Positions 4,278 to 40,047 of a DNA stretch of 64,000 nt are shown here, piece after piece. The notes below the pieces were generated by a model. It made no database searches. It was not told the DNA's origin and saw nothing but the letters and a program-made list of their open reading frames with translations. Origin of the DNA: Candidatus Poseidoniales archaeon (GTDB lineage Archaea > Thermoplasmatota > Poseidoniia > Poseidoniales > Poseidoniaceae). A program made the translations under genes and the position numbers. Numbering within the stretch: position 1 is the first letter of the stretch; the number at the start of each line of letters is the position of its first letter. The DNA lies in assembly GCA_003602575.1 (NCBI GenBank), contig QQRY01000001.1, positions 100,032 through 164,031 on the forward strand. Direction: 5' to 3'.

Positions 4278-4907
4278 CTACTTAGCAAGTGCCAATAATA
4301 TATCTTCACTAATTGAATTGATTTCTCGATCTCCATCAATTCGGTGGAAAATACCTCGACTTTCATACCACTCTGCCAATGGAGATGTTTGTTCATGATA
4401 TGCTGCTAATCGGGATTGTACGGTTTCTTTGTTGTCGTCAGCACGTCTTTTCTCGGTAAAAGTTCCACACTCACAGCCTGAAGTAGGAACTGGATTGAAT
4501 ATTTCATGGAAAACTAAGCCGCAATCACCGCATGAATATCTACCACAGATTCGGTCAACTATTCTTTCATCTGGAACTTCAATGGCTATTACATGAGATA
4601 CATTTGTAATTTCAGAAAGGGCTTCTGCTTGTGGGATAGTCCTAGGAAATCCATCAAACATGACTCCATTCTTGGCATCAGGTAGCAATATTCTTTCACG
4701 AATTAAATCAATAATGATTGAGTCCGGGACAAGTAATCCGGCATCCATGTAACCTTTTGCTTCAAGTCCAGTCGGAGTTTTTTGTTTAACAGCAGCTCTT
4801 AGCATATCCCCAGTAGATACTTGAGGCAGACCTGTTGAGATTGTTATTCTCTCGGCTTGAGTCCCCTTACCTGCACCCGGCGGCCCAAATAATACAATAC
4901 TGCTCAT
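4278..4907 (-). CDS. adk: Adenylate kinase
   Basis: 209 aa. P-loop GPPGAGKGTQAERI, STGDMLRAAV, DGFPRTIPQAEAL, lid-domain CGRYSCGDCGLVFHEIFNPP-like zinc cysteines. Confidence 0.95.
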   Translation of the reverse strand: MSSIVLFGPPGAGKGTQAERITISTGLPQVSTGDMLRAAVKQKTPTGLEAKGYMDAGLLVPDSIIIDLIRERILLPDAKNGVMFDGFPRTIPQAEALSEITNVSHVIAIEVPDERIVDRICGRYSCGDCGLVFHEIFNPVPTSGCECGTFTEKRRADDNKETVQSRLAAYHEQTSPLAEWYESRGIFHRIDGDREINSISEDILLALAK

Positions 4908-4945: not shown

Positions 4946-7900
4946 TCACTTATTATTCTGCTCAAGCCACATATGACCATATGCATTCCATTGCTCAACA
5001 CTCCAACCTGGAGGAAGACCTGTTGGAGGTAGAGGGCGTGTTAGGGCTGGAGTTTGCGGCAATGGTGGATTGATTTTGGGCAATGGGATGACAGGTGGTA
5101 AATTCAATTTGGGAGGCATTCCGGCGGGAATATTCATCTTTGGTGGCATACCCTTTGGAATATTTGGAGCATTGCCAAAACTAGGTAATTCCATAGATTG
5201 TGCTAGAGCAGCCGCAATTTCATCAGCAGAGACTTCCCCACTGGTGATTTCATTGACCGAATTTCCAATATCTAATGCTTCATCACGACGATTAGAAATA
5301 TACTCCGGATTAACATAATTATCGGCTGAAACCAATTGAGAATCATCACTAGAAATCGAGCCACTACGTTTCATTCTTCTAGCGAAAATAACTCCAGACA
5401 CTAGTAGAGTGGATAAGATTAGAACCGAAATATACCATGGAACTGAATTGAATAATCCACTATTACCCTTAGAGGATTGAATACTTGACGAAATGGTCAT
5501 TTGCGCAACAATTTTTGAATCAGAGGTAACATTGATCAAAATTTGGAAAGAACCTTTTTCGGCTCCATCCTTAGGCTCGACCATAACTTCGAACTCGATA
5601 GAATCACCAGGCATTAGTCCTGAAATTTTTGATGGTTTAACATCGGTATTCCAACCTGAAACTTCAACTCCCTCTAAATCGGTAACTATTGCTGAAACGT
5701 CACCTTCGATAATAGTATTGCCATCATTTCGGAAAGTTATAATTTGAGATTCTTCGTTTCCAACTTCAATACCAATGAAATCCTTTAGTGAATTAGTGTT
5801 ACTCGAGAGATTTCCGAATGGAGATTCTTCGACTTTTACATCAAATTGAAGAGTCTCCATGACTGACCTTCCGTTACTTTCAGCAGAGACCGAAACAGTT
5901 AGAGAAAATGAACTCAATGATATCTCTTCATTTAACGGAGGGACAAGTCCAATTGAAACTGTGACCTGTTCTCGTGGATTTATCACCTTAACAGGGTTAG
6001 AAAATCCTACGAGCCAGCCGTCTGGAGGTAGAGAATAAGACCAATTTAGATTTAGAACAGAGTTACCGGTGTTGGATACCATCAAGTCATTATATGAGAA
6101 ATCTGAAGAAATCGATGCTGAAAGAGATTCAGGGCCTGTGAGTTCCAAAGAAACATCTTCTTTAACCAGAATACGAGTTGTATTGGTAACATAATTGAAA
6201 TCAGAGATCTCAGCCCTTAATGTGAATGAGTTTGAATCACCCTCCAATGCAGCAGTTGGAACATTTATTTGGAACTGAACTATTTGTGAATCTCCTGGTT
6301 GTATGGTAATTGAAACCTTTCTAGAATCATTTTCTGTATCAGAGTAGGCTTTCAAAAACCAACTTGGATTAGATGGTTGAATACTGATATCCATATCTAA
6401 AATAGAATTACCTAAATTCCTAATTTCATAATCTAAGAACTTAATTTCGCCACTATCAACAAGTACGTCCCGTGTTATTAGATTTGTACCCACGGGGACG
6501 CCATCATCAAGAAGATGAGCCTGGAATTCTTCTTTCTCCATGACAGAAACTGTAACAACTTCACTGTAATTTAATGTTAAATCTGTAGTGGACGTGACAT
6601 AACATGAGATTTGATCGGTTTCTCCAACCGCTGGCAAGCCATAAGCGACCGGTGGAACAAAAATTCGTACTGGCATCGAAAGGTAAGCTGAAATATCTAA
6701 TGGCTCAAAATCTAATGTCGAGGAATTTGAGTTTCCAAGCATTATTTGCCAGCGATTTTCAGATTCACAGGTAACAGAATATTGCGCAGCTGAATTACCA
6801 ACATTTTGTGCTGAAATCGAAAATGCAACTGATTCACCGGGCTTCGCTGCAAGGCCAGAAGTCCCTGCAGATACAACATTAACATCATCAACTTGACCTA
6901 TTTCAATCGTCAAACGTTGCGAATGAGAAACTGTGGGAAGACTTTGATATTGAACGGTAATATCGACATAAAATGTACCAAAACGAGCATATCTCGGATT
7001 ATTTGAATCATCCAAATTAGCATATTCATTTTCAAAACGCAAGATTACATCTTTGTAATCACCCGATGAACCTTGACCAGTTAGAGAAAATGGACCATTA
7101 TCGGAATATTGTTTAGTCCAAGCGTCCTCTGGCACAATAAAATAATTATAAATTGGATGTTTTTCTTGTACATTAGTTACAGAAAGCGTGACACTTTGGG
7201 TACCAGTACCTTCGTTTTTAATTCGTACAGGGACATCTATTCCTGTTTCATTACGGACATCAAATATTTTGATTGCAGAAGCAGCTCTATCTTCGGGTGA
7301 AACCGGTTCACTACCATCTTCATTAAGTGCAATTACTCTAACACCTAGAGAAGTCACCTCAATATCTGTTGTAATGATATTATTATCGATACCTGAAGAC
7401 TCATCATTCATCTCTTGAATTACATTGTCAGTATCAAGACTCAGTTTTAGAGTGTGAATGCCGGTCGTCGAAAAGGAACGTGTTGTAATAACCGATTCTA
7501 CTTCACTAGAAGCAACACCTTGCGAATCTCCCTGCATCAAGATAGTACCTTCTGTCAAATCTTCCAAAATCCAGTGGAATCCTGTAGTATCCAAGGTACC
7601 TTGATTCATCCATGCAACTCTAACTGAAACTACATCGTTTTGCAAAGGATTTTGCGAAGATAGGTATATTGATTCATTAAAAGTTGTTAAATCCGATTTT
7701 GGTTGTATTGACATATCACCTGTAATAACAATACTGAAATCTTGTTCATTTCCTCCTCTATGCATCACTTTAACTAACCAATTACCGGAATTTGTAAATG
7801 TACCCGGGGCAATTTTTATTCTTTCAACATTATTCAAGTCATCAGCGGTTCCGCCTTGTTTTGAGAATCCTGAAGCAAAATCATTACCCAACCATTGATT

Positions 7901-9856
7901 GCCAGAAGGATCAACTAAAATTAAATCTAAATTATTGACTAATTTTGACTGACTTTGTGCAGAATTAGCACTTCCGGCTTCATCGGTCCACACAAGCGTG
8001 ATATCGATGCCATGGCTGGGGTCTAGATTCAAGTCATAAAGTAGACCAAAACCTGAACGAAGTGATTTCTTGTCGTCGAAGTATGTCGACAAAATCGTGG
8101 TATCATCAGTAGGTAGTATTGTTTGTTCAAGATTTATTTGCCCCCAACCTTCTAAATTATTAGGAATATCTGGTGCTCCTAAATCGGTTGCTCCGTTGAT
8201 TAGTGCAGCTTTGATTAATGATGCTGAAGGTGAACTGATTCCCATCTGTTCACGTAAAAATTCCCTTGTTAGTGAGGCTATTCCTCCAGTGACAGCAGTT
8301 GCTTGAGAAGTTCCAGATAAAGACATGTAAAGCGGGTCTCCGTCGCCGTGGACACCTGTACCGCAAGAAAGACCTGAAGGGGATTTGGCCTCTTCAGCCC
8401 TTCCTGAACAAATTTCTATCCCTGGAGCGACTAAATCTGGTTTAATTCTACCATCAAGAGTTGGCCCTTGACTAGAAATTGCTGCTACTGCACCTGCAGA
8501 TGCTGATGAACTTGAACCTGTTGTACTCGCACCAATAGAGAGGATATTCTTCGCAGTACCTGGAGGTGAAATTTGTGATGCGCCGCTGGAACCTCTGTCA
8601 CCAACAGAGAAAATCGGTAATACAGAAGGTTCATCCCATACAAACTGGTCAACGGAACGTGAATCCGCAGTATACTCTCCGAAGTTTCCGTTTAGTCCCC
8701 AAGCATTAATGGCAATTCTAGCAGTTTTCTGCTTGGCATCCAAAAGAAGGTTGTAAATCGAACCTTGCCGTCCAAAAACTCCTGTGGGGTCATGCTCAAG
8801 CGCATACATTGTAACCAATGCTTCAGGAGCCATACCCTTCGCAGAAGAGTCTCCCGAGCCATCTCCAATTGCAGTTAAAGTCACATGCGTACCATGTCCT
8901 GTGTTACTATCAATAGGAGAAGAATCTAAACCGAACTGTGTGTAAATTGCGGAAACACGTCCAGAAATATCAGGATGATCTCTATCTAAACCAGTATCTG
9001 CAATCGCTAACATCTCACCTGAACCATCTAATGTGAATGTTGCAGAATTCTCTACATCAACAACGCCTGAAATAGCACCTGCGACAGCATTGTGTAGTTC
9101 AAGTCCATGTCCTTGTTCGATCCAAATTATTCTTCCATCAGAAGAGGCTTGGTCAATGAAATGAATTAAATTTGAGTTTGAAAGTGAAACTTGACATGCC
9201 CCAATACCACACCAAGCATCAACAGCTCCGTAATTTGTCAAGTCTAAAACTAATTTTTCAAATCCACCAAAATGTAAATCACTAGATGGGATGATCATCA
9301 AAGTATTATCGTTTTGAATTTCAAGTACTTCGCTACTAACTCTCCAACCAGGGTGCATGTTACCAATCCAACGAATCTGAGAGTCTTCACTCATCACATC
9401 ATAGACTTCAGCAGTATTTTCTGGCAGCCTTATCAACATTGTTGAGTCGCCTAGGTAATCTATAACTGTAAAACCATATTTTGATTGTAACTCATCGAGT
9501 TCTATTCCTGAAAAGTATTCTAATTGTAGAAGTGCGAATCCAGTATTTAGATAATCAAAGTCATCACTTAGAAAACCAGTAACTTTTGGCCCGTTTGATT
9601 TGAGAGGGTCAAATGTTCCCGAAGATAACTGAACTAAACCCGAGCCCCGATGTTGTTCAACTCCTGTCAAACTCATCGATGCTGCCTGATGCCAACTCAT
9701 TGTTGCCATCTCTAACTTCTGTTGCTCAGAATAATCAGGTTCAATAAGTTCCAATGACTCTGAAAAATGATTATTTTTACTGGACATAAGTACAGGTGAA
9801 AATGAGGTAAGCAAAAATAGTGCCAGCATCAAAAGAACACGACGATGGTTCACCAT
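4946..9856 (-). CDS. Secreted, membrane-anchored subtilisin-like serine protease (S8) with CARDB/NEW3-like repeats and a cytoplasmic LPPTGLPxGW tail
   Basis: 1636 aa. Signal peptide; catalytic motifs IADTGLDRDHPD, GHGTHVT, SLSGTSQATAVTGG; C-terminal TM (VPWYISVLILSTLLVSGVIFARRMKR), a Pro-rich linker, and LPPTGLPPGWSVEQWNAYGHMWLEQNNK. Confidence 0.9.
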   Translation of the reverse strand: MVNHRRVLLMLALFLLTSFSPVLMSSKNNHFSESLELIEPDYSEQQKLEMATMSWHQAASMSLTGVEQHRGSGLVQLSSGTFDPLKSNGPKVTGFLSDDFDYLNTGFALLQLEYFSGIELDELQSKYGFTVIDYLGDSTMLIRLPENTAEVYDVMSEDSQIRWIGNMHPGWRVSSEVLEIQNDNTLMIIPSSDLHFGGFEKLVLDLTNYGAVDAWCGIGACQVSLSNSNLIHFIDQASSDGRIIWIEQGHGLELHNAVAGAISGVVDVENSATFTLDGSGEMLAIADTGLDRDHPDISGRVSAIYTQFGLDSSPIDSNTGHGTHVTLTAIGDGSGDSSAKGMAPEALVTMYALEHDPTGVFGRQGSIYNLLLDAKQKTARIAINAWGLNGNFGEYTADSRSVDQFVWDEPSVLPIFSVGDRGSSGASQISPPGTAKNILSIGASTTGSSSSASAGAVAAISSQGPTLDGRIKPDLVAPGIEICSGRAEEAKSPSGLSCGTGVHGDGDPLYMSLSGTSQATAVTGGIASLTREFLREQMGISSPSASLIKAALINGATDLGAPDIPNNLEGWGQINLEQTILPTDDTTILSTYFDDKKSLRSGFGLLYDLNLDPSHGIDITLVWTDEAGSANSAQSQSKLVNNLDLILVDPSGNQWLGNDFASGFSKQGGTADDLNNVERIKIAPGTFTNSGNWLVKVMHRGGNEQDFSIVITGDMSIQPKSDLTTFNESIYLSSQNPLQNDVVSVRVAWMNQGTLDTTGFHWILEDLTEGTILMQGDSQGVASSEVESVITTRSFSTTGIHTLKLSLDTDNVIQEMNDESSGIDNNIITTDIEVTSLGVRVIALNEDGSEPVSPEDRAASAIKIFDVRNETGIDVPVRIKNEGTGTQSVTLSVTNVQEKHPIYNYFIVPEDAWTKQYSDNGPFSLTGQGSSGDYKDVILRFENEYANLDDSNNPRYARFGTFYVDITVQYQSLPTVSHSQRLTIEIGQVDDVNVVSAGTSGLAAKPGESVAFSISAQNVGNSAAQYSVTCESENRWQIMLGNSNSSTLDFEPLDISAYLSMPVRIFVPPVAYGLPAVGETDQISCYVTSTTDLTLNYSEVVTVSVMEKEEFQAHLLDDGVPVGTNLITRDVLVDSGEIKFLDYEIRNLGNSILDMDISIQPSNPSWFLKAYSDTENDSRKVSITIQPGDSQIVQFQINVPTAALEGDSNSFTLRAEISDFNYVTNTTRILVKEDVSLELTGPESLSASISSDFSYNDLMVSNTGNSVLNLNWSYSLPPDGWLVGFSNPVKVINPREQVTVSIGLVPPLNEEISLSSFSLTVSVSAESNGRSVMETLQFDVKVEESPFGNLSSNTNSLKDFIGIEVGNEESQIITFRNDGNTIIEGDVSAIVTDLEGVEVSGWNTDVKPSKISGLMPGDSIEFEVMVEPKDGAEKGSFQILINVTSDSKIVAQMTISSSIQSSKGNSGLFNSVPWYISVLILSTLLVSGVIFARRMKRSGSISSDDSQLVSADNYVNPEYISNRRDEALDIGNSVNEITSGEVSADEIAAALAQSMELPSFGNAPNIPKGMPPKMNIPAGMPPKLNLPPVIPLPKINPPLPQTPALTRPLPPTGLPPGWSVEQWNAYGHMWLEQNNK

Positions 9857-9916: not shown

Positions 9917-10954
9917 TCAAATATTGTTATATTTTGAGATTGCTGAGTCTGTCTTCATAACTGATTTTTCCCAATTGGATTCCACACCCATCAATGCTCT
10001 AATAGCATCAACATTTTCTGGAATAACATCAGATTCTTGATGTATCGCTTGGAAATAATAAAGAGTATTTCCTTCCAACTTCACACCATCTTTCCAGACA
10101 AAAATTTCATGTAAATCGCCCCACTTACGACCTATGTCCCTTGCAAATTCCATAACTTCGGCGGTGGTAGTAATTCCAGTTTCTCCACCATTCATCAAAA
10201 TGATCCTTGGTTGAGAGCCCCACATAGAAAGTACCTTTTCCGTATCTAGTCCATGCCCTTCTGGCAATGTCGCAACTATTACATGAACGTGCATTATAGT
10301 AGTTGGAACTGCAACTGCCATGGAATTAATTGAGATCTCAGGCTTGACAGTCATTACATCAGGACCATGGTGAGAAGGTACTTTTAGAACCGGCTTGATT
10401 GCATTGATTGGTCCTTTGTTTGAGTCACCAGGGTCTGCTGCTCGACGAATCATAGTACACTCAACACTTAACTCACCACAGTGATTGTAAAGAGGTACTA
10501 ATGTCCTTGAAAGTCCGGTAGTATTGCAGGAAACTACACGAGTACCTTCTGCATTGAGGTTCTCTTCATGATTTGCTGATGAAGTATAAGACAACTCAGT
10601 CATCGAATGTTTCTCTCCACCTTGAAAAATCCACTTTACGCCGGCTGATTGATATTTTTCTTTGTTAGAAGCACCTATTTTGCCAGGTGAACAATCCACT
10701 ACAATGTCAGCAACAGAAAGTAAATCTGATAATCCTCCATGACACTCATATCCAGCTTTACCAAATGCATCAATTCTTTCTTGCTCATCAAATGTACAAT
10801 AGATGGGATATCCTTTTCTCACTGCTAAATCACAACCAAATGCAGGCCTAGTCTTAGTTACACCAACAATTTCCATATCATCTTGAGCGTCGACAGCATC
10901 TGCAACTCTCTTACCAATTGTTCCATATCCGTTGATAGCCACCTTAATTGTCAT
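9917..10954 (-). CDS. gap: Type II (archaeal) glyceraldehyde-3-phosphate dehydrogenase
   Basis: MTIKVAINGYGTIGKRVADAVDAQDDMEIVGVTKTRP...; SCNTTGLSRTL catalytic Cys; RRAADPGDSNKGPINAI. The ORF runs to 11035, but the internal Met (residue 28) fits the family N-terminus. Confidence 0.92.
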   Translation of the reverse strand: MTIKVAINGYGTIGKRVADAVDAQDDMEIVGVTKTRPAFGCDLAVRKGYPIYCTFDEQERIDAFGKAGYECHGGLSDLLSVADIVVDCSPGKIGASNKEKYQSAGVKWIFQGGEKHSMTELSYTSSANHEENLNAEGTRVVSCNTTGLSRTLVPLYNHCGELSVECTMIRRAADPGDSNKGPINAIKPVLKVPSHHGPDVMTVKPEISINSMAVAVPTTIMHVHVIVATLPEGHGLDTEKVLSMWGSQPRIILMNGGETGITTTAEVMEFARDIGRKWGDLHEIFVWKDGVKLEGNTLYYFQAIHQESDVIPENVDAIRALMGVESNWEKSVMKTDSAISKYNNI

Positions 10955-11055
10955 GCCCTCACCGATTACCTGTCCTTGAAGTCCCTCTATTAACAAATCG
11001 TTAGAAATATCTTGGTCAAAAACATCACAATTCATAATTTGCTCAAAGAAAGTAT

Positions 11056-14420: not shown

Positions 14421-16886
14421 ATGAGCAGAGGAGTGGTCCTGATGTTGTTGGTGACAATTTTTGCACCAATGGTTTATGCCACCGCAAATACTCAATCACG
14501 AAGTGATTTTGTAGGGGTTAATTCTCAGGAAGAACTTATCATACACCGTAGTGAAACATTAGAGGTGCCAATTACTCTTCAAAACATTAAGGATTACACA
14601 CAGACTTACACATTAGAATTACTTTCAATTGGTGATGACTTGAGTGTTACTGGGCTTCCTTTGCAATATACTTTGGATCCTAACGGGCTTCGTCAAGTTA
14701 AATTTAGTATCACAGGTGACTCAAATGCAGGATATGCATCAAGTACCTTGAAATTGAATATTACTAATGATGTAAATTTGGATGAATATCACCATATTGA
14801 AATCGATATTGAAATTATGCCTCAATCAGACTTAGAGTTCGGGGTTGAAGGAATTTCACAATTCGTTGTTGATGCAGAAGTCCGCACTAATCTTGCAGTC
14901 AATATTACCAATAATGCATTACTTTCTGATGAAGTAACCTATAGCATCTCCACGCAATCATCATGGAATTGGGGTTGGACCATGAATCAAACCAACGGAA
15001 ATAATGCGTTAGAGACTCTATCACCCGGACAATTATCTTATGTTTATTTCTGGGTTGACATACCTTCTGTAGTGGATGGCTCGCCACTGTTTGAAACTGG
15101 ACCTAGATTCACCCTTATTGCGTCTTCAGGATTAGATTATGCCAAAAGTCAATGGTCATTTGATCTCTTAATGAGTGCTTATAGAAATATTTCTATCGAC
15201 TATGTAGAGGAAAATTTGACACTAGATCCTAATGAAAATGATAGAGTAAGCATCACTGTTCGAAATGTTGGTAATGTAAATAATAAAATTAGCATTGCAC
15301 TAGAGGCTATAGATGATTCTGGACAGCCAATTGCAAATATGGGACTTGCTGATAGAGTAGAGTTTGACGGCTGGACTGCTGCCCTTTTTGGCGCTAAAGA
15401 AGATATAGATCTCTTGCCTAATCAAGGACGCACATTTGAAGTCGGAATACAATCACCAAATGACTATTCAGGAAATTTTAATGTCAGAGTACATATCTAC
15501 CCTATCGGGGATATTTCAAAGAAAAATATCGTAGATGTTAGTGCGGATATTGAATGGGTACGTAATGGAAATTTAGAATTGATTAATGAGGAGTGTCTTG
15601 AGTTATTACCAGGACAACAATGTAAATCTGAATTTAGAATTACCAATACAGGAAATGCATTAGATAATTTTGAAATTAAGGTTAATGAAATACCTTCTTT
15701 CTTGCAATTTACTGGATCATCTTTGTCCTATAACTTACTACCAAATCAAGTTATTACAAGTGAAGAAATAATTGTAACGGCAAGACAAGAAGCCTTCGCA
15801 TTTGAAAATGGAAATATCGAATTTCAACTAGTACTTTCGGGAAGTCAAGAAGTGGTTTCAGAGGCTAGTAATACAGTGGTCATCGCTCCGCAAATTAACT
15901 GGAGTTTAGAGGAATTAGTCGAAGAAATCGATGCTAAAGGTAGACTCTCTATTGCTATGACTTTGAAGAATAATGGTAATGCCATTGACGGACTAGTAGT
16001 TCAACTGGAGTGTTCACACTCAACACAAATGACCTTCATACCACCAAGTAATGCAATTATTGAAGATGGGGTTGGTTTCCCTAGGTCTTTTGAAATTAAT
16101 GACTTACCATTAGGCTCTAATTTCACGATTAGAGCATGGGCTGAAATACCTGATGACCAAACAAGTAATGGAACAATGGAGTTGTACACTACAGTACGCT
16201 CAAGATTTGCTCCTGATCAACCATTTATTTTCACATCTTCAGCAGATTATCTCGGCGAGTCATGGCGTTCTGATGTTGAAGAAAATGATGATTATAGTTT
16301 TACTAAATTCACATCGGATGTAAAAATAATTGTCAAATCATGGGGTTTTGTGATTTTAGCAGTCATCATATCAACCATGATATTAAATCGGTCATTGAAA
16401 GACAGAAAGCAGAGATTGGAAGAGGAAGCTCTCAGACAATCATTATACAAGAAGAAAAACCCTGAGCAAGTAGAAGATTGGATGGGGAAATTTGAGCAGA
16501 AAAGTCAAACTGAAATGCAGGTGATTGAATCACCTGAAATCTCATCGGAAAGATTCGAGAATACATTCAAAAAATTTGCAGGACCTACTAAGCAAGCTTC
16601 TGCTCCAGTCGATGAACGATTAAGAGAGGCAGCAGGATTAGTATTAGATGTACATGATAAGACCAGTGTTATTGAATCGGCAGATGAATTGCTCGAACAG
16701 ATATCGAATGAAGGAATTGCGAGACCAATAAAGCAGAATCAATCTCTCGAGATGAAACCGGAGGAAACAAGTCTCACAACAAGAAATGACCCTAATAATA
16801 TTACAAATAAAAATCAACCAGCAGTAACAACCGTACAAAATTCTGTACCACTGCCAAAAAAGATTGAGGATGATTTAGATTTTTGA
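14421..16886 (+). CDS. Secreted membrane-anchored protein with NEW3/CARDB-like beta-sandwich repeats and a charged cytoplasmic tail
   Basis: 821 aa. Signal peptide VVLMLLVTIFAPMVYA; repeated VRNVGNVNNKISI / ITNTGNALDNFEI / LKNNGNAIDGLVV segments; TM KSWGFVILAVIISTMILNRS near the C-term. Confidence 0.7.
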   Translation: MSRGVVLMLLVTIFAPMVYATANTQSRSDFVGVNSQEELIIHRSETLEVPITLQNIKDYTQTYTLELLSIGDDLSVTGLPLQYTLDPNGLRQVKFSITGDSNAGYASSTLKLNITNDVNLDEYHHIEIDIEIMPQSDLEFGVEGISQFVVDAEVRTNLAVNITNNALLSDEVTYSISTQSSWNWGWTMNQTNGNNALETLSPGQLSYVYFWVDIPSVVDGSPLFETGPRFTLIASSGLDYAKSQWSFDLLMSAYRNISIDYVEENLTLDPNENDRVSITVRNVGNVNNKISIALEAIDDSGQPIANMGLADRVEFDGWTAALFGAKEDIDLLPNQGRTFEVGIQSPNDYSGNFNVRVHIYPIGDISKKNIVDVSADIEWVRNGNLELINEECLELLPGQQCKSEFRITNTGNALDNFEIKVNEIPSFLQFTGSSLSYNLLPNQVITSEEIIVTARQEAFAFENGNIEFQLVLSGSQEVVSEASNTVVIAPQINWSLEELVEEIDAKGRLSIAMTLKNNGNAIDGLVVQLECSHSTQMTFIPPSNAIIEDGVGFPRSFEINDLPLGSNFTIRAWAEIPDDQTSNGTMELYTTVRSRFAPDQPFIFTSSADYLGESWRSDVEENDDYSFTKFTSDVKIIVKSWGFVILAVIISTMILNRSLKDRKQRLEEEALRQSLYKKKNPEQVEDWMGKFEQKSQTEMQVIESPEISSERFENTFKKFAGPTKQASAPVDERLREAAGLVLDVHDKTSVIESADELLEQISNEGIARPIKQNQSLEMKPEETSLTTRNDPNNITNKNQPAVTTVQNSVPLPKKIEDDLDF

Positions 16887-19845: not shown

Positions 19846-21930
19846 TTAACCGACTATCTTAATGGTTCTTGAACAACCACTACATGCAATTCTAAGTGGT
19901 CGAATGTCGCTTGTAACTATGTTTACTGTTTTACAAGCCGGGCAGCCTATAGTCGGCAACGATGTTTCAACTTGTGGAGCAATACTAGAATTCTGAAGAC
20001 TTCGACGCGGACTGACTAAACTAGTGATGAACCACAAAGAGACTACAGCAATTGCAGCACCTCCGATAAAGACTGGAGGGTAAGAGAAATAGTAAATTAG
20101 CATTACAAGTGGTATCAAAACTAATTCAAACATCAAAAACCTTCGATGCCTATTACGAGTAATGCGTAAACAGAATAGTAGGCCTAACAAAAATATGACG
20201 CCAGTGAGAGTGATGAGTGTTGTAGGGCCATAGAAAATTGAATCAGTTGGTTGAATGGTGATTGTAAAATCTTCTGATGGACTGATTGAATCACCTTCAA
20301 CCGTAATCTTTTCACCCCAAGGCATTCTTGAGTGCTTGAATATTAGGTCATCGGATTCTAATAATTCTGCTCCTGCAAAAGATGACATTCCTGATGAAGT
20401 TGCTTCTATTTTCAATGAATAGTCTTTCCAAATATTATCAGAACTAGACGATGTAAATGTTCGCATTAAAATGAAATTTGTATCCTTTTCCAATGTTTGA
20501 AGAGTAGAAAACTGAAGTTTCAACGGATGTTCAATGACACTGGTCTCACCCATTAAATCTACTGAAATCGATATTGTATCAAAATCACCTTGGTCTCCAA
20601 TTAGTTCTCCGCTATCAATCTGCATGCCATTGAGATCTGTCATATATGTCCTATATCTGTTAACCATTTCTCTTTGGAATTGTTCCAACTCTACTGATTC
20701 AATATTTTTACTAACTCTTTCCTGGTCTGTAATTGAGCCAGGATTCCAACCCCTTAGTACTGAATCTGGACCAATGTTAACATCTCCAATGTGGTCCATA
20801 CCCCACCTCATCCAGAATGCCATATCACCATCAACTTCTAAAGTGGTTAATCGAGATAATTTCAATTTACCTTTTGAAATTGACAACTCAACATTTTGTT
20901 CGATTGATAGAGGACTTCCAACACCACCTATAGATGTCCTTAATGGCTCATTTGACGGATAAAATGTTCCTGTACCTCCGCCACCATCAAATGTTTCAAC
21001 CAAGAATTCTGATTGACCAGAAAGTAATGGTCCTGAAGATTGTAAAGAAACTCTAATTGAAACTTGGATTGTCTCTTCGCCACCTGATGCACCTTGCCAA
21101 GTCCATGTTATAATGAATGAGTCTCCATTTTGGGTTTGAACTGGATTACCTGAAATCAAGATATTATTCACCCGCAGTTCAATAGAACTCGAATAAGATA
21201 ACGTGTCTAGGCCAAATGGAGAGTCTATTTTCACTGGTAAGTAGACATCACTCCCATCGACTATAGGATCTTCAATAGTCAAGTCTAGCAAAGGAATTTC
21301 TGCAGTAATTTTTGACTCATGATCAGAAGAGCCCCATAAGAATTCTAGCTTTGCCCCACTTTCTGGAACACTAAATACAACTGTTCTTGCAGTCAAGCTT
21401 AACTCGATGTCACTTGATGCTGACAGTGAAGTACTATCTACTGGAATATCAAAACTAAGAACCCCTTCACCTTGTGGTAAAATAGTTGAACCAATATCAG
21501 TAGAAGCAGAAAAGGAAAGTGATCCAATTTTTACAGTTGCAGTGGCGTTAACCTGTGCTCCACCAGCATCGCTAACTTTGTAATGAATTGAAAATGACCA
21601 AGTTGATTCAGGAACATCACCAGGCCATACTTGACTCATACTCCAAGTTCCTATTTGCTCTTCCGAGGTAATAGAATTGGAAATCGAGACTGAAGAGGAG
21701 TCTGTATCCAATTTCTGTGAAAATGGAGTCAAATCTCCACTAGCTCCTTCGACAAGATACAAGTCTACACTGGATGCAGTGTCGCAACAAACCTGAACTG
21801 GTTCTGCAGCAGCAGTATTGGTAAATGTCGTAGAAAATGGCATCAAAGTAGCACAAATCAACACTAAAAGTAAGGTTGTTGCCCGACTAAACATTGCTAC
21901 CACAGAATGCACGGAACATTCATGCCTCAT
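19846..21930 (-). CDS. Secreted membrane protein with a C-terminal zinc ribbon
   Basis: 694 aa. N-terminal signal sequence, long extracellular beta-rich region, two or three TM helices, then IGCPACKTVNIVTSDIRPLRIACSGCSRTIKIVG. Confidence 0.65.
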   Translation of the reverse strand: MRHECSVHSVVAMFSRATTLLLVLICATLMPFSTTFTNTAAAEPVQVCCDTASSVDLYLVEGASGDLTPFSQKLDTDSSSVSISNSITSEEQIGTWSMSQVWPGDVPESTWSFSIHYKVSDAGGAQVNATATVKIGSLSFSASTDIGSTILPQGEGVLSFDIPVDSTSLSASSDIELSLTARTVVFSVPESGAKLEFLWGSSDHESKITAEIPLLDLTIEDPIVDGSDVYLPVKIDSPFGLDTLSYSSSIELRVNNILISGNPVQTQNGDSFIITWTWQGASGGEETIQVSIRVSLQSSGPLLSGQSEFLVETFDGGGGTGTFYPSNEPLRTSIGGVGSPLSIEQNVELSISKGKLKLSRLTTLEVDGDMAFWMRWGMDHIGDVNIGPDSVLRGWNPGSITDQERVSKNIESVELEQFQREMVNRYRTYMTDLNGMQIDSGELIGDQGDFDTISISVDLMGETSVIEHPLKLQFSTLQTLEKDTNFILMRTFTSSSSDNIWKDYSLKIEATSSGMSSFAGAELLESDDLIFKHSRMPWGEKITVEGDSISPSEDFTITIQPTDSIFYGPTTLITLTGVIFLLGLLFCLRITRNRHRRFLMFELVLIPLVMLIYYFSYPPVFIGGAAIAVVSLWFITSLVSPRRSLQNSSIAPQVETSLPTIGCPACKTVNIVTSDIRPLRIACSGCSRTIKIVG

Positions 21931-32979: not shown

Positions 32980-33330
32980 TTGGGCGGTACATTGGAAGGG
33001 GGCAATTCTCAGTTTGCAAATACTACTGCTGAGGTTGATGCAAAACCCAGTATATTTCGTGTTTTCAAGCAAATTTGGACAGAAATGACTCTTGGAGTTG
33101 GTTTTTGGGGCGCACTACGACCACTTGTGGCAGCATTATTGGCGCTCGTTCCGTTCCTATTTCTTGGTCAGCACTTCAATAAAAAGCACCGTAAGGCAAC
33201 TGACTGGACATTATTACAAATCCCATTGGCATTAACTGTAGTTCTCTGGTTTGCTTTGTGGGGATTCTCGATTTTTGATGCATGGCGTGATGGAACCAAG
33301 TTAGTATCAGAAAATAGTTTGAATAACTAA
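32980..33330 (+). CDS. Small two-TM membrane protein
   Basis: 116 aa with hydrophobic segments ALRPLVAALLALVPFLFLG and LLQIPLALTVVLWFALWGFSIF. Confidence 0.6.
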   Translation: MGGTLEGGNSQFANTTAEVDAKPSIFRVFKQIWTEMTLGVGFWGALRPLVAALLALVPFLFLGQHFNKKHRKATDWTLLQIPLALTVVLWFALWGFSIFDAWRDGTKLVSENSLNN

Positions 33331-34118
33331 GGCGTCCAAAGTTGATCGTAAACTTCGATTCTTCCAGTTTTCATATCCGTTAGATCGTTTAGGTCATCTT
33401 GATCAAATTCAGTCGGTAAGTCACCAGAAATTATGTTTCTAATATTTGTCGATTCAATCGCCCAGTACATGACTGATTCATCATTATTTGAGTGGTTTGG
33501 ATGATCGGGATCTTCGTGTTCTACAAGTGATTGGTAAACAATATTAACAAGCCCCAAAAGATGGCCTACTTCATGAACAAGTACGCTATTTTCAACCTCC
33601 TCTGCTGATGGACGTCCAAAAAATGGCCCTTTTGCCTCTTCGACTGAATCTCCAAATACTGCCACTGTAGAAGCATCTACAGCCACACCCAAAACGCTAT
33701 CATCGCTATAGGTTCCTGATGGGAATAATACCTGCCAGTGAAGTGTTGAGGAAGTTTGAGGATCGTTCTCTTTATTCTCCCATGCATGATATCTTACATC
33801 ATCACTTGTCCAAGAACCGGTATTTCCAAATACGGTTTCTGTGAATGTGATAGTTATTCCATCTGGCTTATCACAAACCTGCTCAAGCCTTTGTTTCAAT
33901 AAATCTGTACTACTTGATTTAGGTTGATAACCACTTTCATAGTCAACCTCAATGACAAGTTCTGTGTATTTACTAGAATCTAGACAAGCCATTACCAAAC
34001 CACCTGGAATACCACGATTATTATCTCCGATTATTATTTCATCCGAGATGCAACCTGAAAAACCACTCAATAACAGTACTGTGATAACAACTGCGAATTG
34101 TGACTGTCTCCTTCCCAT
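33327..34118 (-). CDS. Predicted secreted lipoprotein zinc metalloprotease
   Basis: 263 aa. Signal plus lipobox-like LLLSGFSGC; zinc motif VLVHEVGHLLGLVN (HExxHxxGL). Confidence 0.75.
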   Translation of the reverse strand: MGRRQSQFAVVITVLLLSGFSGCISDEIIIGDNNRGIPGGLVMACLDSSKYTELVIEVDYESGYQPKSSSTDLLKQRLEQVCDKPDGITITFTETVFGNTGSWTSDDVRYHAWENKENDPQTSSTLHWQVLFPSGTYSDDSVLGVAVDASTVAVFGDSVEEAKGPFFGRPSAEEVENSVLVHEVGHLLGLVNIVYQSLVEHEDPDHPNHSNNDESVMYWAIESTNIRNIISGDLPTEFDQDDLNDLTDMKTGRIEVYDQLWTP

Positions 34119-34153: not shown

Positions 34154-34600
34154 CTACCATTCTTCAGGAAGTATTATTGGTGAAAATAATTGTCCTGGAG
34201 AGGTTGCAGAAGATAGTTGACTTCGGGCCAATTGCTCCCACATTCTCAGTGCCAAAATACCATCATCAAGTGCCATATCAGTTTCAATCAATGTAACACG
34301 AATAAGTGTGGCTAAGATGTCCATTCTATCATCGTCGACAATAGAAATTATTTTTTCTAAATCCATTTTTGTATTTGAGATAGTATTAGACTCATTAGAT
34401 AATGGCCACGGAGATGTGACCTTAACTGGAAAAAAGGCACCTGTATTAGAGATATGTTCATCTAATGATTTCATTAATTGCTTTATGTGATTACCAATTA
34501 CCATACTAACTTCAATTAATGGCATCTGCAATTGATTAATTAGATTGACCATCCTTTCTTGAAGTGTAACTAAACCATCAACTTCAAAATTCTCTTCCAT
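34154..34600 (-). CDS. Hypothetical cytoplasmic protein (148 aa)
   Basis: ORF 8 nt downstream of the giant 34609-40047 gene on the same strand. No family recognised. Confidence 0.55.
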   Translation of the reverse strand: MEENFEVDGLVTLQERMVNLINQLQMPLIEVSMVIGNHIKQLMKSLDEHISNTGAFFPVKVTSPWPLSNESNTISNTKMDLEKIISIVDDDRMDILATLIRVTLIETDMALDDGILALRMWEQLARSQLSSATSPGQLFSPIILPEEW

Positions 34601-34608
34601 TTAATCAC

Positions 34609-37600
34609 TCACTTCTTGAAAGATTCCATGTATTTCCAGCCATAATGTTCCCACTGATCCATAGTCCAACCTTCGGGTAAACCAGTAGGCGGAAGTGGTG
34701 CAATCCCAGGATTATTAGTCAATGGATTAACTACAGGTTGAGGCACTATTTGTGGGCTAGGTATTGGCATTGGTAATGGCTGTTGAACATTTAATGGCTG
34801 AATTGGATTCATTTCGGGAATTGGTTGATTAACAATATCTGGAATCTGTTTGTATTGATTCTGTTCTTCAATCACCTCTTCAGTTTGGTCTAATTCATCA
34901 GTTGAATCTTCATCCTCTTGCTTCATTCTTCTTGTTACAACTAACATCCACAATCCAAAGGATACAGATATTAGAGCTATCAAGAATAATGTTATACCAA
35001 ACATTTCGTCTCCAGCTTGTTGGGCTAGAGCTTCTCCATCTCTGACTGTCTCTTCTTTTACTAGCAATGGATCAATAGTTTTACGATCAATCTCATTGTC
35101 TCCAAGCATTGCTAAAACTCTGAATTCCAATGTAGTTGATTGCTGTTGAGATATGGAATATGGAATCGATATGTACATAGTTGAATTTTGATTGACAATT
35201 TGTGATTCTTCAGCAACCTTTACCCAGTTTTTTTGCAAATCTAAATATTCCAAAATAAATGTGACATTTCCTTTACTTCCTTCATTCAAAACCTGAACAT
35301 TTAGTATTGCAGTTTCTCCCACATTAGGACTAGGATTATCCCAACTAATTTGGGTTTGAGAACTTGATAAATCTATACTAGGACCAATTAATGCTAGAGG
35401 CCATGAAGCAAATGGCGAGGAGGCAGAATTAGAATTTACATCAAATGAATTTCCTGAGCTATCCGAACCAGTTAACCAGATGTCTAGCTCATAGGTTGTG
35501 AGAAGTGTAGTGGCTCCTAAATCTGTGAAATCTATGTTTCCATTCCAAAAATATGAACCCTCGAATTCTAAATATGAGTTCAGTATCTTGCTTCCTCGTG
35601 AAATTTCCGACTCACCTGCTCTTACCCTGTAATGGACTATAATCGATGAAGAGTCTGCAAAACCAAAGTCATCTGAAGATTCTACCAATATGGTAATATC
35701 AGACATTTTCGATATAGAAATATCTTCTCCTGCAACAACATTATCCAAACGAATCTCGTTTATTACAGGGCTTGTACTATCAACTGCTAGCCGCAATCTA
35801 GGTGTAATTGATGTTTCATCTTGGGATAATCCAGGCATATCTGCCATTTGTAGTGAAAGGTCAAGATGACCTGAAGGGGCACTTGGAACTAAGAAATCCA
35901 TACTGAAATAACCATCATCACGAATCGAAGTTTCCCATTGATTATCATAATCGAATAATGAAATGTCAAAAATTCCAGCTGGAGCAGGTGTTTCATCCTC
36001 TGAAAATAAGACTCTACCTGCAACTCTCATAGCCTGCCCCACACCGATATTAGATTCATCGAAATTCGAGTTGTAATGATTGATCCCATTACGTAATTCT
36101 ACTGCCGTTATGTGGCCTGACATTAAATCAAATCTGAAATCATTATCCAAACTCCAAGCATTACTAGACAGAACCTCATCCTCTACATTACAAGGCACAT
36201 CTGATTCAATGGAACAAGGATGGTCTGAAACCGATAGATGTGGTAAGTAGAATGACTCACCATCGGTGTCATAAGACTCTGCAAATAGCCAAGTTAATTG
36301 GAATTTTATACTTACAATCAATTTAGTTTGCTCAATGTTACCGATTTCAGCACTAGAATAAATATTGGATACTGCAATGAATTGAGAACTTGATTCTACA
36401 TTGATAATGGGTAGCCCGTCTAAACTTTCGCTTATAGTGGCATACATTGTCGTATCTAAATCTGAGAGGGAGTTGCCCAAGGTTAGTTGAATTGTATCGA
36501 TATCTTTCCAACCATTTCCGTCAGTAATTACAACTTGAGCAGTATAGTATACTCCGGGGTGTAAAGGCTCTTCATCACTATGCCCAATTATTGAACTATT
36601 GGAAGTATCGAACTCTGGAATGAATTCTTCACGGATGATATATGTCGAAAGGTCGCCGTCCCAGTCTGGAGGTTGCTCATCATTGGCAAATCCACATTTT
36701 GTATTACTTTGAGGACAAACAGGCCCACCGCCCATTGCAATCTGATTATTTTGTCCGTCCTCTCCTGTAACATAGAAAGAAACTCTCTGTCCGTGCGATA
36801 GAATAGAATCATCGATCAAACCTTGGAATATATTCAAACCACCAGATTTAATTTCTGGGGAAGAAAGAGTTTTTGTTTGATACTCATCAGAATTTGGCAA
36901 ATTATCTGAATTAAAATCATTACAACGTGTATCGATAATTGTCCTACATCCAAGCCAGTAGTGCAATGTCAGGAGTGTTGGTGGGTCGACTGAATCTTGT
37001 ATCGTTATTGATATTGGTTGCCCAGATGGAGCAGGTAAAGAGGCATGCAGATGTTGCCCATTCAACGGTGATGCAGAAATTACAAGTGGTGATTTTCCAT
37101 CTAGAATTAAGCGAATGTTATTGTAATTTGGATTTACGTACTCTGAACCATTAACAAGTTCAACTGCTTGTACATAGAAGACCATGCCCCCAGGAGTGGA
37201 TTGCATCGGTGTTTGGAATGTCAAATTATAGTATCCAAATCCCGGATTTTGTTCCTCATAAAGTATTTCTTGTTGTCCTACTGGCTGACCTGAGTTACTT
37301 ACATTTTGTCCAATAACACGAAGATTGAATTGACCAGGAAGAGGTGTGAATTGAGAACCTTCAAAGTTAATCATTCCAGTAAAAGTAATATTTGTTCCTC
37401 CTCGAAGCCATTCAAGATTAGTAACTTGGTTTCCTGACTCATCATAAACCATCATTGAGTTTAATTGTATATCATTTTCAATCTTCAAATCCATTGATTC
37501 TGTTTGCCAAGATGAAACTGCAACTCCATCATCATCTTCAACTGTAACCAGGGCTTGAGTGGCTTGTTCATCATTCCAATCCCATAATGTTTGGAATGGT

Positions 37601-40047
37601 ATCTGAATCTCTAGAATTCCATCACTATCAATATTTGATGAACAGTTATTGCTATCAAATATTGCTATTGATTCATTGTTCGTATTAGTTGAACATGAAT
37701 CTCCAAGTTCCCAAATAAAACTTGGATTATTCCCGTTAGAGTTAATTATTTCCACAAAAGTCCTAGTAATCCTTTCAACATCATCTCCAGCAGCAGCCTT
37801 GACTGTTAGAGTACGTTTTATCCCATCAGGGACAGAAACATCTCCATCTAAATCAACACTTATGGCACGAGTTTGCATCTTGTATTCGACATCGAGATCT
37901 GTGATTTTCATTCGCCCAGGTGTTTCGGCCTTGATAGAGAGAAATACGGTTTCATCGCCTTCTCCATTACTTGGGATCTCCTGATTAATAGCAGATACCA
38001 ATGTGGGTGTTTGAATAACTTCACTGCCAACTATGGATGAATCACTAACAGTTATTGATGATTCGTTAAGAAATTGTAGCGACTCCCAATCCCAATCACC
38101 AACTCCATTGATGTTTATCGACGGTTTATCTGGATATCCTTCCTCATACCATAACGTAAATGAATCAATTGACGGCGATGAATAAATGTTTGAGGAGCTA
38201 AGGGTTATTTCAAATCTCAAGATATCACCTGAACCCTCAGTCGGGAAATTTACTTCTTGATTATTTAGTGCTGAGAGCCAATTTGTCCCATTATCATTGG
38301 ACACTTTGACATCTATGGAGCCCCCTATCGGGACATCTGCAACCCATTCCGGTCTAACTTTGCCAACTTTAGTACCTGTGGCATAAAAGTCTGAGGTCCA
38401 AGTTCCTGAAGATGAGTAAGATGTGTAATAATCTAAATTTACCCACCACGAGACCGCAGTAGAACCAATTAATTGTGCCTTCCAAATCAATTGATTACCT
38501 GGATGTGCGAAATGTATTGTAGATAGAGAAGTTACCGCTTCCCAATGTGTGCCATTATCTGCTGAAACCCAGTAATCAACCCTATCTCCGACCGACGAAA
38601 CTGACCAGTAAGTCTCCATATTCACAGAAAGTACAGGATCTGTAGTCACAATAGTTTCTCCAAACCAAGTAGTAGTTCCTGGTGCTGGAATTGTGGGGTA
38701 AGTCATTCCAGCACCATACTCTCGATAATTTAGAGTTACAGAAGAAAAGGAAGAATAACTACAATCAACAGTTATCAGCCTTGAACCATCATATTGGAGA
38801 CCATAACCAAGAACTGTAATCTGCTTGGTATCTGTCTGTGGAGTAAGAACTTCTGAAGTACCGGTGATTTTCCATGCTTCTAGAACATCCTTATTTTGAC
38901 TACCAGAAGAACCTTTTTGACATCGCATGAAAAATGTTGATTCAATAACCTCTAGACCTCTTACTTGTTGCCCAGTTTTACCACATTGGTATGAGGAGCC
39001 TGAGGATGAAAAATAGGTGTATATTTTAGAACCTCGGGTAAATCCTCCATTTTGCATTTCATCAAATTCATAAGACACGATTCGTCGCTGAGAATTATGC
39101 AAAACCCAAACTACATCTCTCGAAGAATCATATGCAATACCTGTATAATCATTGTATTGCGGAGAAACATCATATGAGTCAAGACATGTCCAAACATCAT
39201 CCTTGGAAATATCAAATTCTAATATTCTATGATTCACAGCTGGAGCAGTAGATGTGTAATGATAGCGATAAGTCGATAGAATACCAAACAATCTTTCATC
39301 ATCTGTCACTGTCCAATCTCTAAAACCATAATATGCATAATAACTAGATGATGGCATCTGTGGTAGAGTACACGTCGATTGTTCCAGTAAAATTGTTGAT
39401 TCAACTGTGGCATTATTTGGATATAATCTCTTGACAACATTACTAAATTGCTTGGATGACCAAGTTGACAAAAATAGCCAATCATGGTGTTTCAAAATCG
39501 CCCCTTGACTTTGAGCAATCAATGCAGAAGATGTCTTTTTGACTTGCATTGAGAATAGATTCTCAGTGGAATTAGATGTATGTGGTTGTCTAATCGAATA
39601 AGTCCCATTATCCAACCAAGCATCAGAATTATTGCTAGTCTCTTCATCTAGACCATGGGGTGAAAAGGAATTATTCATTTGGCTAGGTGCGAGTGTTAAA
39701 TCCCCGCTTCTAGAATCAGTCAAACCAGAAATGCCCGCCATCCAGTCAGACCTTTGATCTACAACAACATCTGACCATCCGGTCGAAGATGCACCGGACA
39801 AAGTCATAGAGATATCATTAACTGTAGCCCCTTTAGGGATTGATATTTCAGCACCATCATCAGTCCTTCCATTTTGGTATAGAGCCATGTACTCATTACT
39901 TCCATCACTGAATTGATATATGTGCCTAGGTACATTATTTGCTGAAACATCATCAATTAGTATATCTGATAAAGGGGTTAAAGGAGTGAGGAACATGATA
40001 AAAACTAGTAGAAATGCTTTCGAAAAACTCGGCTTATCTACTCTCAA
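34609..40047 (-). CDS. Giant secreted membrane-anchored protein with a cytoplasmic LPPTGLPxGW tail
   Basis: 1812 aa. N-terminal signal, long beta-rich extracellular region, TM MFGITLFLIALISVSFGLWMLVV, acidic then Pro-rich linker, and LPPTGLPEGWTMDQWEHYGWKYMESFKK. Confidence 0.8.
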   Translation of the reverse strand: MRVDKPSFSKAFLLVFIMFLTPLTPLSDILIDDVSANNVPRHIYQFSDGSNEYMALYQNGRTDDGAEISIPKGATVNDISMTLSGASSTGWSDVVVDQRSDWMAGISGLTDSRSGDLTLAPSQMNNSFSPHGLDEETSNNSDAWLDNGTYSIRQPHTSNSTENLFSMQVKKTSSALIAQSQGAILKHHDWLFLSTWSSKQFSNVVKRLYPNNATVESTILLEQSTCTLPQMPSSSYYAYYGFRDWTVTDDERLFGILSTYRYHYTSTAPAVNHRILEFDISKDDVWTCLDSYDVSPQYNDYTGIAYDSSRDVVWVLHNSQRRIVSYEFDEMQNGGFTRGSKIYTYFSSSGSSYQCGKTGQQVRGLEVIESTFFMRCQKGSSGSQNKDVLEAWKITGTSEVLTPQTDTKQITVLGYGLQYDGSRLITVDCSYSSFSSVTLNYREYGAGMTYPTIPAPGTTTWFGETIVTTDPVLSVNMETYWSVSSVGDRVDYWVSADNGTHWEAVTSLSTIHFAHPGNQLIWKAQLIGSTAVSWWVNLDYYTSYSSSGTWTSDFYATGTKVGKVRPEWVADVPIGGSIDVKVSNDNGTNWLSALNNQEVNFPTEGSGDILRFEITLSSSNIYSSPSIDSFTLWYEEGYPDKPSININGVGDWDWESLQFLNESSITVSDSSIVGSEVIQTPTLVSAINQEIPSNGEGDETVFLSIKAETPGRMKITDLDVEYKMQTRAISVDLDGDVSVPDGIKRTLTVKAAAGDDVERITRTFVEIINSNGNNPSFIWELGDSCSTNTNNESIAIFDSNNCSSNIDSDGILEIQIPFQTLWDWNDEQATQALVTVEDDDGVAVSSWQTESMDLKIENDIQLNSMMVYDESGNQVTNLEWLRGGTNITFTGMINFEGSQFTPLPGQFNLRVIGQNVSNSGQPVGQQEILYEEQNPGFGYYNLTFQTPMQSTPGGMVFYVQAVELVNGSEYVNPNYNNIRLILDGKSPLVISASPLNGQHLHASLPAPSGQPISITIQDSVDPPTLLTLHYWLGCRTIIDTRCNDFNSDNLPNSDEYQTKTLSSPEIKSGGLNIFQGLIDDSILSHGQRVSFYVTGEDGQNNQIAMGGGPVCPQSNTKCGFANDEQPPDWDGDLSTYIIREEFIPEFDTSNSSIIGHSDEEPLHPGVYYTAQVVITDGNGWKDIDTIQLTLGNSLSDLDTTMYATISESLDGLPIINVESSSQFIAVSNIYSSAEIGNIEQTKLIVSIKFQLTWLFAESYDTDGESFYLPHLSVSDHPCSIESDVPCNVEDEVLSSNAWSLDNDFRFDLMSGHITAVELRNGINHYNSNFDESNIGVGQAMRVAGRVLFSEDETPAPAGIFDISLFDYDNQWETSIRDDGYFSMDFLVPSAPSGHLDLSLQMADMPGLSQDETSITPRLRLAVDSTSPVINEIRLDNVVAGEDISISKMSDITILVESSDDFGFADSSSIIVHYRVRAGESEISRGSKILNSYLEFEGSYFWNGNIDFTDLGATTLLTTYELDIWLTGSDSSGNSFDVNSNSASSPFASWPLALIGPSIDLSSSQTQISWDNPSPNVGETAILNVQVLNEGSKGNVTFILEYLDLQKNWVKVAEESQIVNQNSTMYISIPYSISQQQSTTLEFRVLAMLGDNEIDRKTIDPLLVKEETVRDGEALAQQAGDEMFGITLFLIALISVSFGLWMLVVTRRMKQEDEDSTDELDQTEEVIEEQNQYKQIPDIVNQPIPEMNPIQPLNVQQPLPMPIPSPQIVPQPVVNPLTNNPGIAPLPPTGLPEGWTMDQWEHYGWKYMESFKK

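Follow-up and report, generated by a model that had tools for sequence, protein, structure and literature searches.

A C-terminal tail shared by diverse surface proteins of Poseidoniales is predicted to be a cytoplasmic mini-domain and may serve for docking

Several described protein elements resemble the tail reported here. PGF-CTERM and MYXO-CTERM elements carry their signature ahead of a transmembrane (TM) helix, and a basic cluster at the end. One study describes them as C-terminal sorting tags (PMC11980579). The SHOCT domain (PF09851) is a short helical module of about 30 residues, mostly C-terminal, which occurs on many unrelated proteins and whose role is unknown. It consists of two amphipathic helices and a loop with a conserved Gly. 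According to the SHOCT paper, the authors' initial test gave no oligomers (PMC3581485). The WW domain has two spaced Trp and forms a three-stranded sheet, 35-40 residues long. Finally, the Gram-positive LPxTG signal is cut by sortase.

The tail comes from a stretch of 64,000 nucleotides (the window) of a Candidatus Poseidoniales archaeon. The order Poseidoniales is also known as Marine Group II. Two papers rank them first in abundance among the archaea of the surface ocean, and state that they have no cultured member (PMC6461757, PMC6336850). A first-pass annotation had noted that two giant proteins in the window end in the same tail. This is indeed the case, with 15 of 28 positions identical.

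The first of these is a secreted or anchored subtilase of 1636 aa (4946..9856, minus strand), an open reading frame with a PF00082 match (E 2e-38) and the catalytic motifs. Its layout is signal peptide, S8 domain, Ig-like stalk, TM helix and tail, where the S8 domain has DTG287, HGT321 and the GTS serine motif. The C-terminal TM helix, WYISVLILSTLLVSGVIFA (5381..5437, minus strand), is followed by an RRMKR stop. From there a predicted cytoplasmic linker (5033..5380, minus strand) starts with two short predicted helices near the membrane, and continues as a Pro/Gly/Met-rich tether. Tail copy 1, LPPTGLPPGWSVEQWNAYGHMWLEQNNK, occupies 4949..5032 (minus strand), which is residues 1609-1636. Adenylate-kinase-like and GAPDH-like genes flank this subtilase (4278-4907 and 9917-11035). 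Across the order, the adenylate-kinase-like gene is beside the tail-bearing subtilase at 33 of 33 loci and the GAPDH-like gene at 27.

The second protein is a giant surface protein of 1812 aa (34609..40047, minus strand), an open reading frame that has no Pfam domain above the cut-off. Like the subtilase, it has a signal peptide ahead of its large ectodomain, and a single TM helix. Its C-terminal TM helix (34936..35004, minus strand) is followed by TRRMK, and then by a predicted cytoplasmic linker that is acidic and later Pro/Gln-rich (34696..34935, minus strand). Tail copy 2, LPPTGLPEGWTMDQWEHYGWKYMESFKK (34612..34695, minus strand; residues 1785-1812), was also modelled with AlphaFold2. Directly after this gene come those for a 148-aa protein without Pfam match (34154-34600) and for a protein of 263 aa whose matrixin match is below threshold (33327-34118). 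Both are kept with the giant in 10 of 10 loci, and the three genes are likely an operon. As the annotation claimed, a TM helix, a charged segment and a Pro-rich linker precede both tails, and the ectodomains are dissimilar, falling in separate BLAST clusters.

A profile built from just these two tails finds 11 copies in the window's genome, at E values from 8e-21 to 7e-9. This means that the likeness of the window tails is not chance. The aligned copies show no exceptions at P2, P4, L8, P9, G11, W12, Q16, W17, Y20 and G21. One complete Marine Group II chromosome has 10 strong copies. Of the 390 genomes of the phylum that were scanned, all 127 sampled Poseidoniales genomes contain the tail, so that the profile reaches far beyond the two paralogues it was made from. 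The tail-bearing families are Poseidoniaceae and Thalassarchaeaceae; one of them has 5-12 copies per genome, the other 1-7. The remaining 263 genomes of the phylum all lack it, among them those of the sister family f3, which we take to be MGIII. A laxer search of that family gave weak matches that are antisense or chance LPxGW fragments. A viral origin was considered and rejected, as the sole match on a viral contig (L092) is a chance one inside a transposase-like protein. The scan of all genomes retained the best 80 loci, and rare copies outside the phylum are possible.

Pfam, NCBIfam and PHROG contain no convincing family match to the tail. A sequence profile search of the PDB found no relative, only weak matches to WW chains at E 0.08 and above, and the motif strings are in no paper of the literature searched. 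Judged by these sequence comparisons, the tail is an undescribed mini-domain of about 25 residues, and not the already characterised domain that the first-pass annotation had allowed for.

In some 95 strong matches at retrieved loci, the distance from the end of the tail to the stop is 0-10 residues, or about 29-33 residues in one subclass. This subclass is mostly of the PKD type, and its extra residues form a second conserved end, often DDLDL/F. The window also encodes an 821-aa membrane protein (14421-16886, plus strand) that ends in KKIEDDLDF, and thus has the DDLDL/F end as well.

A hydropathy scan places a TM helix upstream of every strong match, with the tail signature 28-131 residues downstream of it. 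Conversely, the tail is absent from all of 442 genes that have no TM helix. The 8 residues after the TM helix contain more Lys/Arg than the 8 before it in 97 of 106 cases, and the reverse is true in 1. By the positive-inside rule, the tail should therefore be cytoplasmic. The annotation had proposed to test whether matches are always C-terminal and on the cytoplasmic side of a TM helix. Every strong match is at or near the C-terminus and behind a TM helix, and the charge rule points to the cytoplasmic side in 97 of the 106 cases.

AlphaFold2, run on 55 tails, predicts one helix, at residues 20-35 of 36. The pLDDT is 91 in block 11-20, the Pro-rich stretch, and 92 in block 21-30. When all 144 cytoplasmic residues of the window subtilase are modelled, the pLDDT is 84-86 over the tail, while most of the linker, one helix excepted, is at about 55-75. 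The predicted structure is thus a compact Pro-rich strand and helix on a loose tether. An invariant Gly sits in the middle of the helix, which suggests that the Pro-Trp segment packs closely on it. A PDB fold search with the tail model, which is only 36 residues long, found no match.

What is attached to the tail varies widely. When ectodomains alone are clustered, with tails left out, at least 9 unrelated groups bear the tail, in addition to a minimal TM protein. The annotation's notion of one tail on unrelated ectodomains therefore extends to 9 clusters. Pfam names for these groups are subtilase, PKD/CARDB, WD40-like propeller with TSP3, CARDB/NPCBM and arylsulfotransferase. Two more groups have a CxxCH-like or CPPC motif, recognised by eye only. 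The minimal form has a TM helix, linker and tail without an ectodomain, in about 135 aa (133-136; L004, L076, L087).

The tail is the best-conserved segment of the proteins that bear it. Between orthologues, identity is 0.63-0.77 in the tail, 0.33-0.60 in the ectodomain, 0.29-0.48 in the TM helix and 0.27-0.49 in the gap-rich linker. The loci in this comparison had been found by the tail pattern, and it was repeated on subtilase orthologues found by whole protein. That search is dominated by the ectodomain. It led to 19 C-termini, one of which runs off its contig, and the tail ends 17 of the other 18, with 11 invariant positions. The remaining orthologue (G039) has kept the subtilase and lost the tail, so the tail is not strictly needed.

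The nearest neighbour of a tail is in the same ectodomain family in 85% of cases, where 18% is expected (the maximum over 2000 shuffles was 34%). This points to old copies that have been maintained in parallel in each ectodomain family, rather than to recent copying of the sequence.

A relative of the tail also occurs in tandem. A 1760-aa giant, present in 39 of 58 Poseidoniaceae genomes (L158 to L177; G390:C1:1919951-1920088), ends in two repeats of the type [IVLM]PxGW[TS]xxQ[WY]. The window's own genome, which is incomplete, yielded no copy of this giant. Profile comparison of these repeats with the tail gives a probability of 96.6% (E 5e-10), from which we take the core module to be LPxGWTxEQW plus the helix.

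Other cytoplasmic ends exist as well. In paralogous giant subtilases (G000:C30:33500-40500, which is L106; L107; L115) the tail is replaced by a cytoplasmic, zinc-ribbon-like C-terminal module, CWSCRNPI...CPACGARYH. Yet other surface subtilases close with PPPPPGFE, and those of f3 stop just past the TM helix. Which cytoplasmic end is used thus depends on the individual protein and is not fixed by the protease. Within the window, a membrane protein (19846-21930, minus strand) has a C-terminal Cys4 zinc-ribbon-like segment (CPACKTVN...CSGCSRTIKIVG). A 1472-aa surface protein (53237-57655, minus strand) has a TM helix, a Gln/Pro linker and a different W-rich tail, PGWLWDEQTSQWVPDPNYVPGQN; as the latter is a single copy in the window's genome, it was rejected as a relative.

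What the tail does is a separate matter. Our preferred reading, to which we give an even chance, is that of a mini-domain by which these proteins dock to one cytoplasmic partner common to them all. Under this proposal, the consensus PPLPxxGLPxGW[TS]x[ED]QWxxYGxx[WY]L would fold into a cytoplasmic mini-domain some 25 residues long. A flexible tether rich in Pro and Ala would carry it at the inner end of Poseidoniales surface proteins that cross the membrane once. The extracellular parts vary (protease, PKD/CARDB, propeller/TSP3, ASST-like and others), and the tail would be their common handle. Most likely, a shared cytoplasmic or membrane-cortex partner would then bind the aromatic face of the helix, and by doing so gather, position or stabilise these proteins in the membrane. 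In favour of this reading we count the distribution over the whole order, the unrelated ectodomains, the C-terminal place behind a TM helix on the predicted cytoplasmic side, the high conservation of the tail, its long upkeep in separate ectodomain families, the prediction of a folded end on a loose linker, and the minimal protein that has no ectodomain.

The annotation had advised looking for a co-occurring partner, and this did not lead to one. Gene neighbours differ by ectodomain family: the subtilase has adk and a GAPDH-like gene next to it, and another family has a chaperonin gene. No neighbour is common to the tail families, and a common neighbour gene was rejected as the partner. Because the tail is universal in the order, there is also no contrast of presence and absence on which to base a partner search. 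Flotillin, for which the window's genome has a Band_7 match, is at best a guess for the scaffold; one paper reports it as widespread in Poseidoniales (PMC6461757). Besides the lack of a shared neighbour gene, three points count against docking. The conserved residues may largely serve internal packing, which would leave little conserved surface for a partner; orthologue G039 keeps the subtilase without the tail; and these same genomes encode further surface subtilases with zinc-ribbon ends.

The tails might instead bind each other, so that different surface proteins would cluster in patches and need no separate partner. The predicted helix is aromatic and amphipathic, and an invariant Gly lies halfway along it. 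This would suit such self-association, as would the tandem form and the use of one tail on many different proteins. However, the tail is acidic, with a mean net charge of -2.7, which disfavours packing of like with like, and the comparable SHOCT domain did not form oligomers in the initial test cited above. We regard self-association as fairly unlikely. The same charge bears on the idea of a membrane-surface anchor, in which the helix, rich in Trp and Tyr, would lie against the inner leaflet. Several aromatics are indeed on one face of the predicted helix, but this helix has on average 0.4 Lys/Arg against 2.2 Asp/Glu, its hydrophobic moment is a moderate 0.31, and an anchor does not need a long linker. 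This makes an anchor improbable in our view.

It is also conceivable that the tail is a biogenesis or stability tag, recognised in the course of export or by quality control; it could block C-terminal degradation or report that a giant protein is complete. Very large proteins carry the tail at their extreme C-terminus or close to it, on a tether predicted to be accessible to proteases. Against this, the 135-aa protein has the tail too, other giants of the same genomes lack it, and one subclass has about 30 further residues behind it. Such a tag is unlikely. Least credible by far is a sorting signal of the LPxTG type. LPPTG is present in both window tails, but LPxTG occurs in just 25 of 91 tails, and the T position can be T, S, G, E, A, D or H. 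The motif comes after the TM helix and not before it. Furthermore, the window's genome (87% complete) has no PF04203 match, in a search that was positive in 3 control genomes. On these grounds a sortase signal was excluded, which confirms the annotation's caution that the string is in the wrong place for one.

Docking could be part of something larger, an order-wide cytoplasmic sorting code. One reader or cortex scaffold would collect proteases, adhesins and sensors into one membrane domain by way of their common inner tail, and in a parallel set of paralogues the zinc-ribbon tail takes its place. This extension is tentative, and we think it somewhat doubtful. For the organisation of giant proteases and adhesins in Marine Group II, a universal and so far unannotated inner tail is useful as bait for whatever organises them. 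With its profile, the surface proteins that carry it can be searched for as a class, and the tail is a marker for the order Poseidoniales.

Among the known systems, PGF-CTERM and MYXO-CTERM resemble the tail in that they too mark the C-termini of many diverse surface proteins throughout a lineage. Their signature is before the TM helix however, and that of the tail is 28-131 residues after it. With the Gram-positive LPxTG signal it has in common that it is a shared C-terminal element on diverse surface proteins, with the letters LPPTG in some copies. It differs in its predicted cytoplasmic place behind the TM helix, and in that the T is not conserved. The WW domain has a similar LPxGW start, and the weak PDB profile matches are to WW chains of Salvador and Itchy. 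Only LPxGW is shared, the rest of the tail is predicted to be helical, and no Pfam WW match occurs among the tails.

SHOCT comes nearest in habit, being alike in size, position and spread over unrelated proteins, but where it has two helices and a loop, the tail is predicted to have a Pro-rich strand and one helix. Kinship was rejected: none of 55 tails match the Pfam profile, the profile-profile probability is about 0.1%, and two sub-threshold SHOCT matches in the window's genome are away from the tails. No SHOCT was found in the sampled Poseidoniales, while 3 of 3 sampled f3 genomes, which lack the tail, have it, as do others outside f3. The two are mutually exclusive in the sampled genomes, which could be coincidence. 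For the proposed sorting code, the parallel would be the way in which adaptor or scaffold proteins of eukaryotes act on receptor tails.
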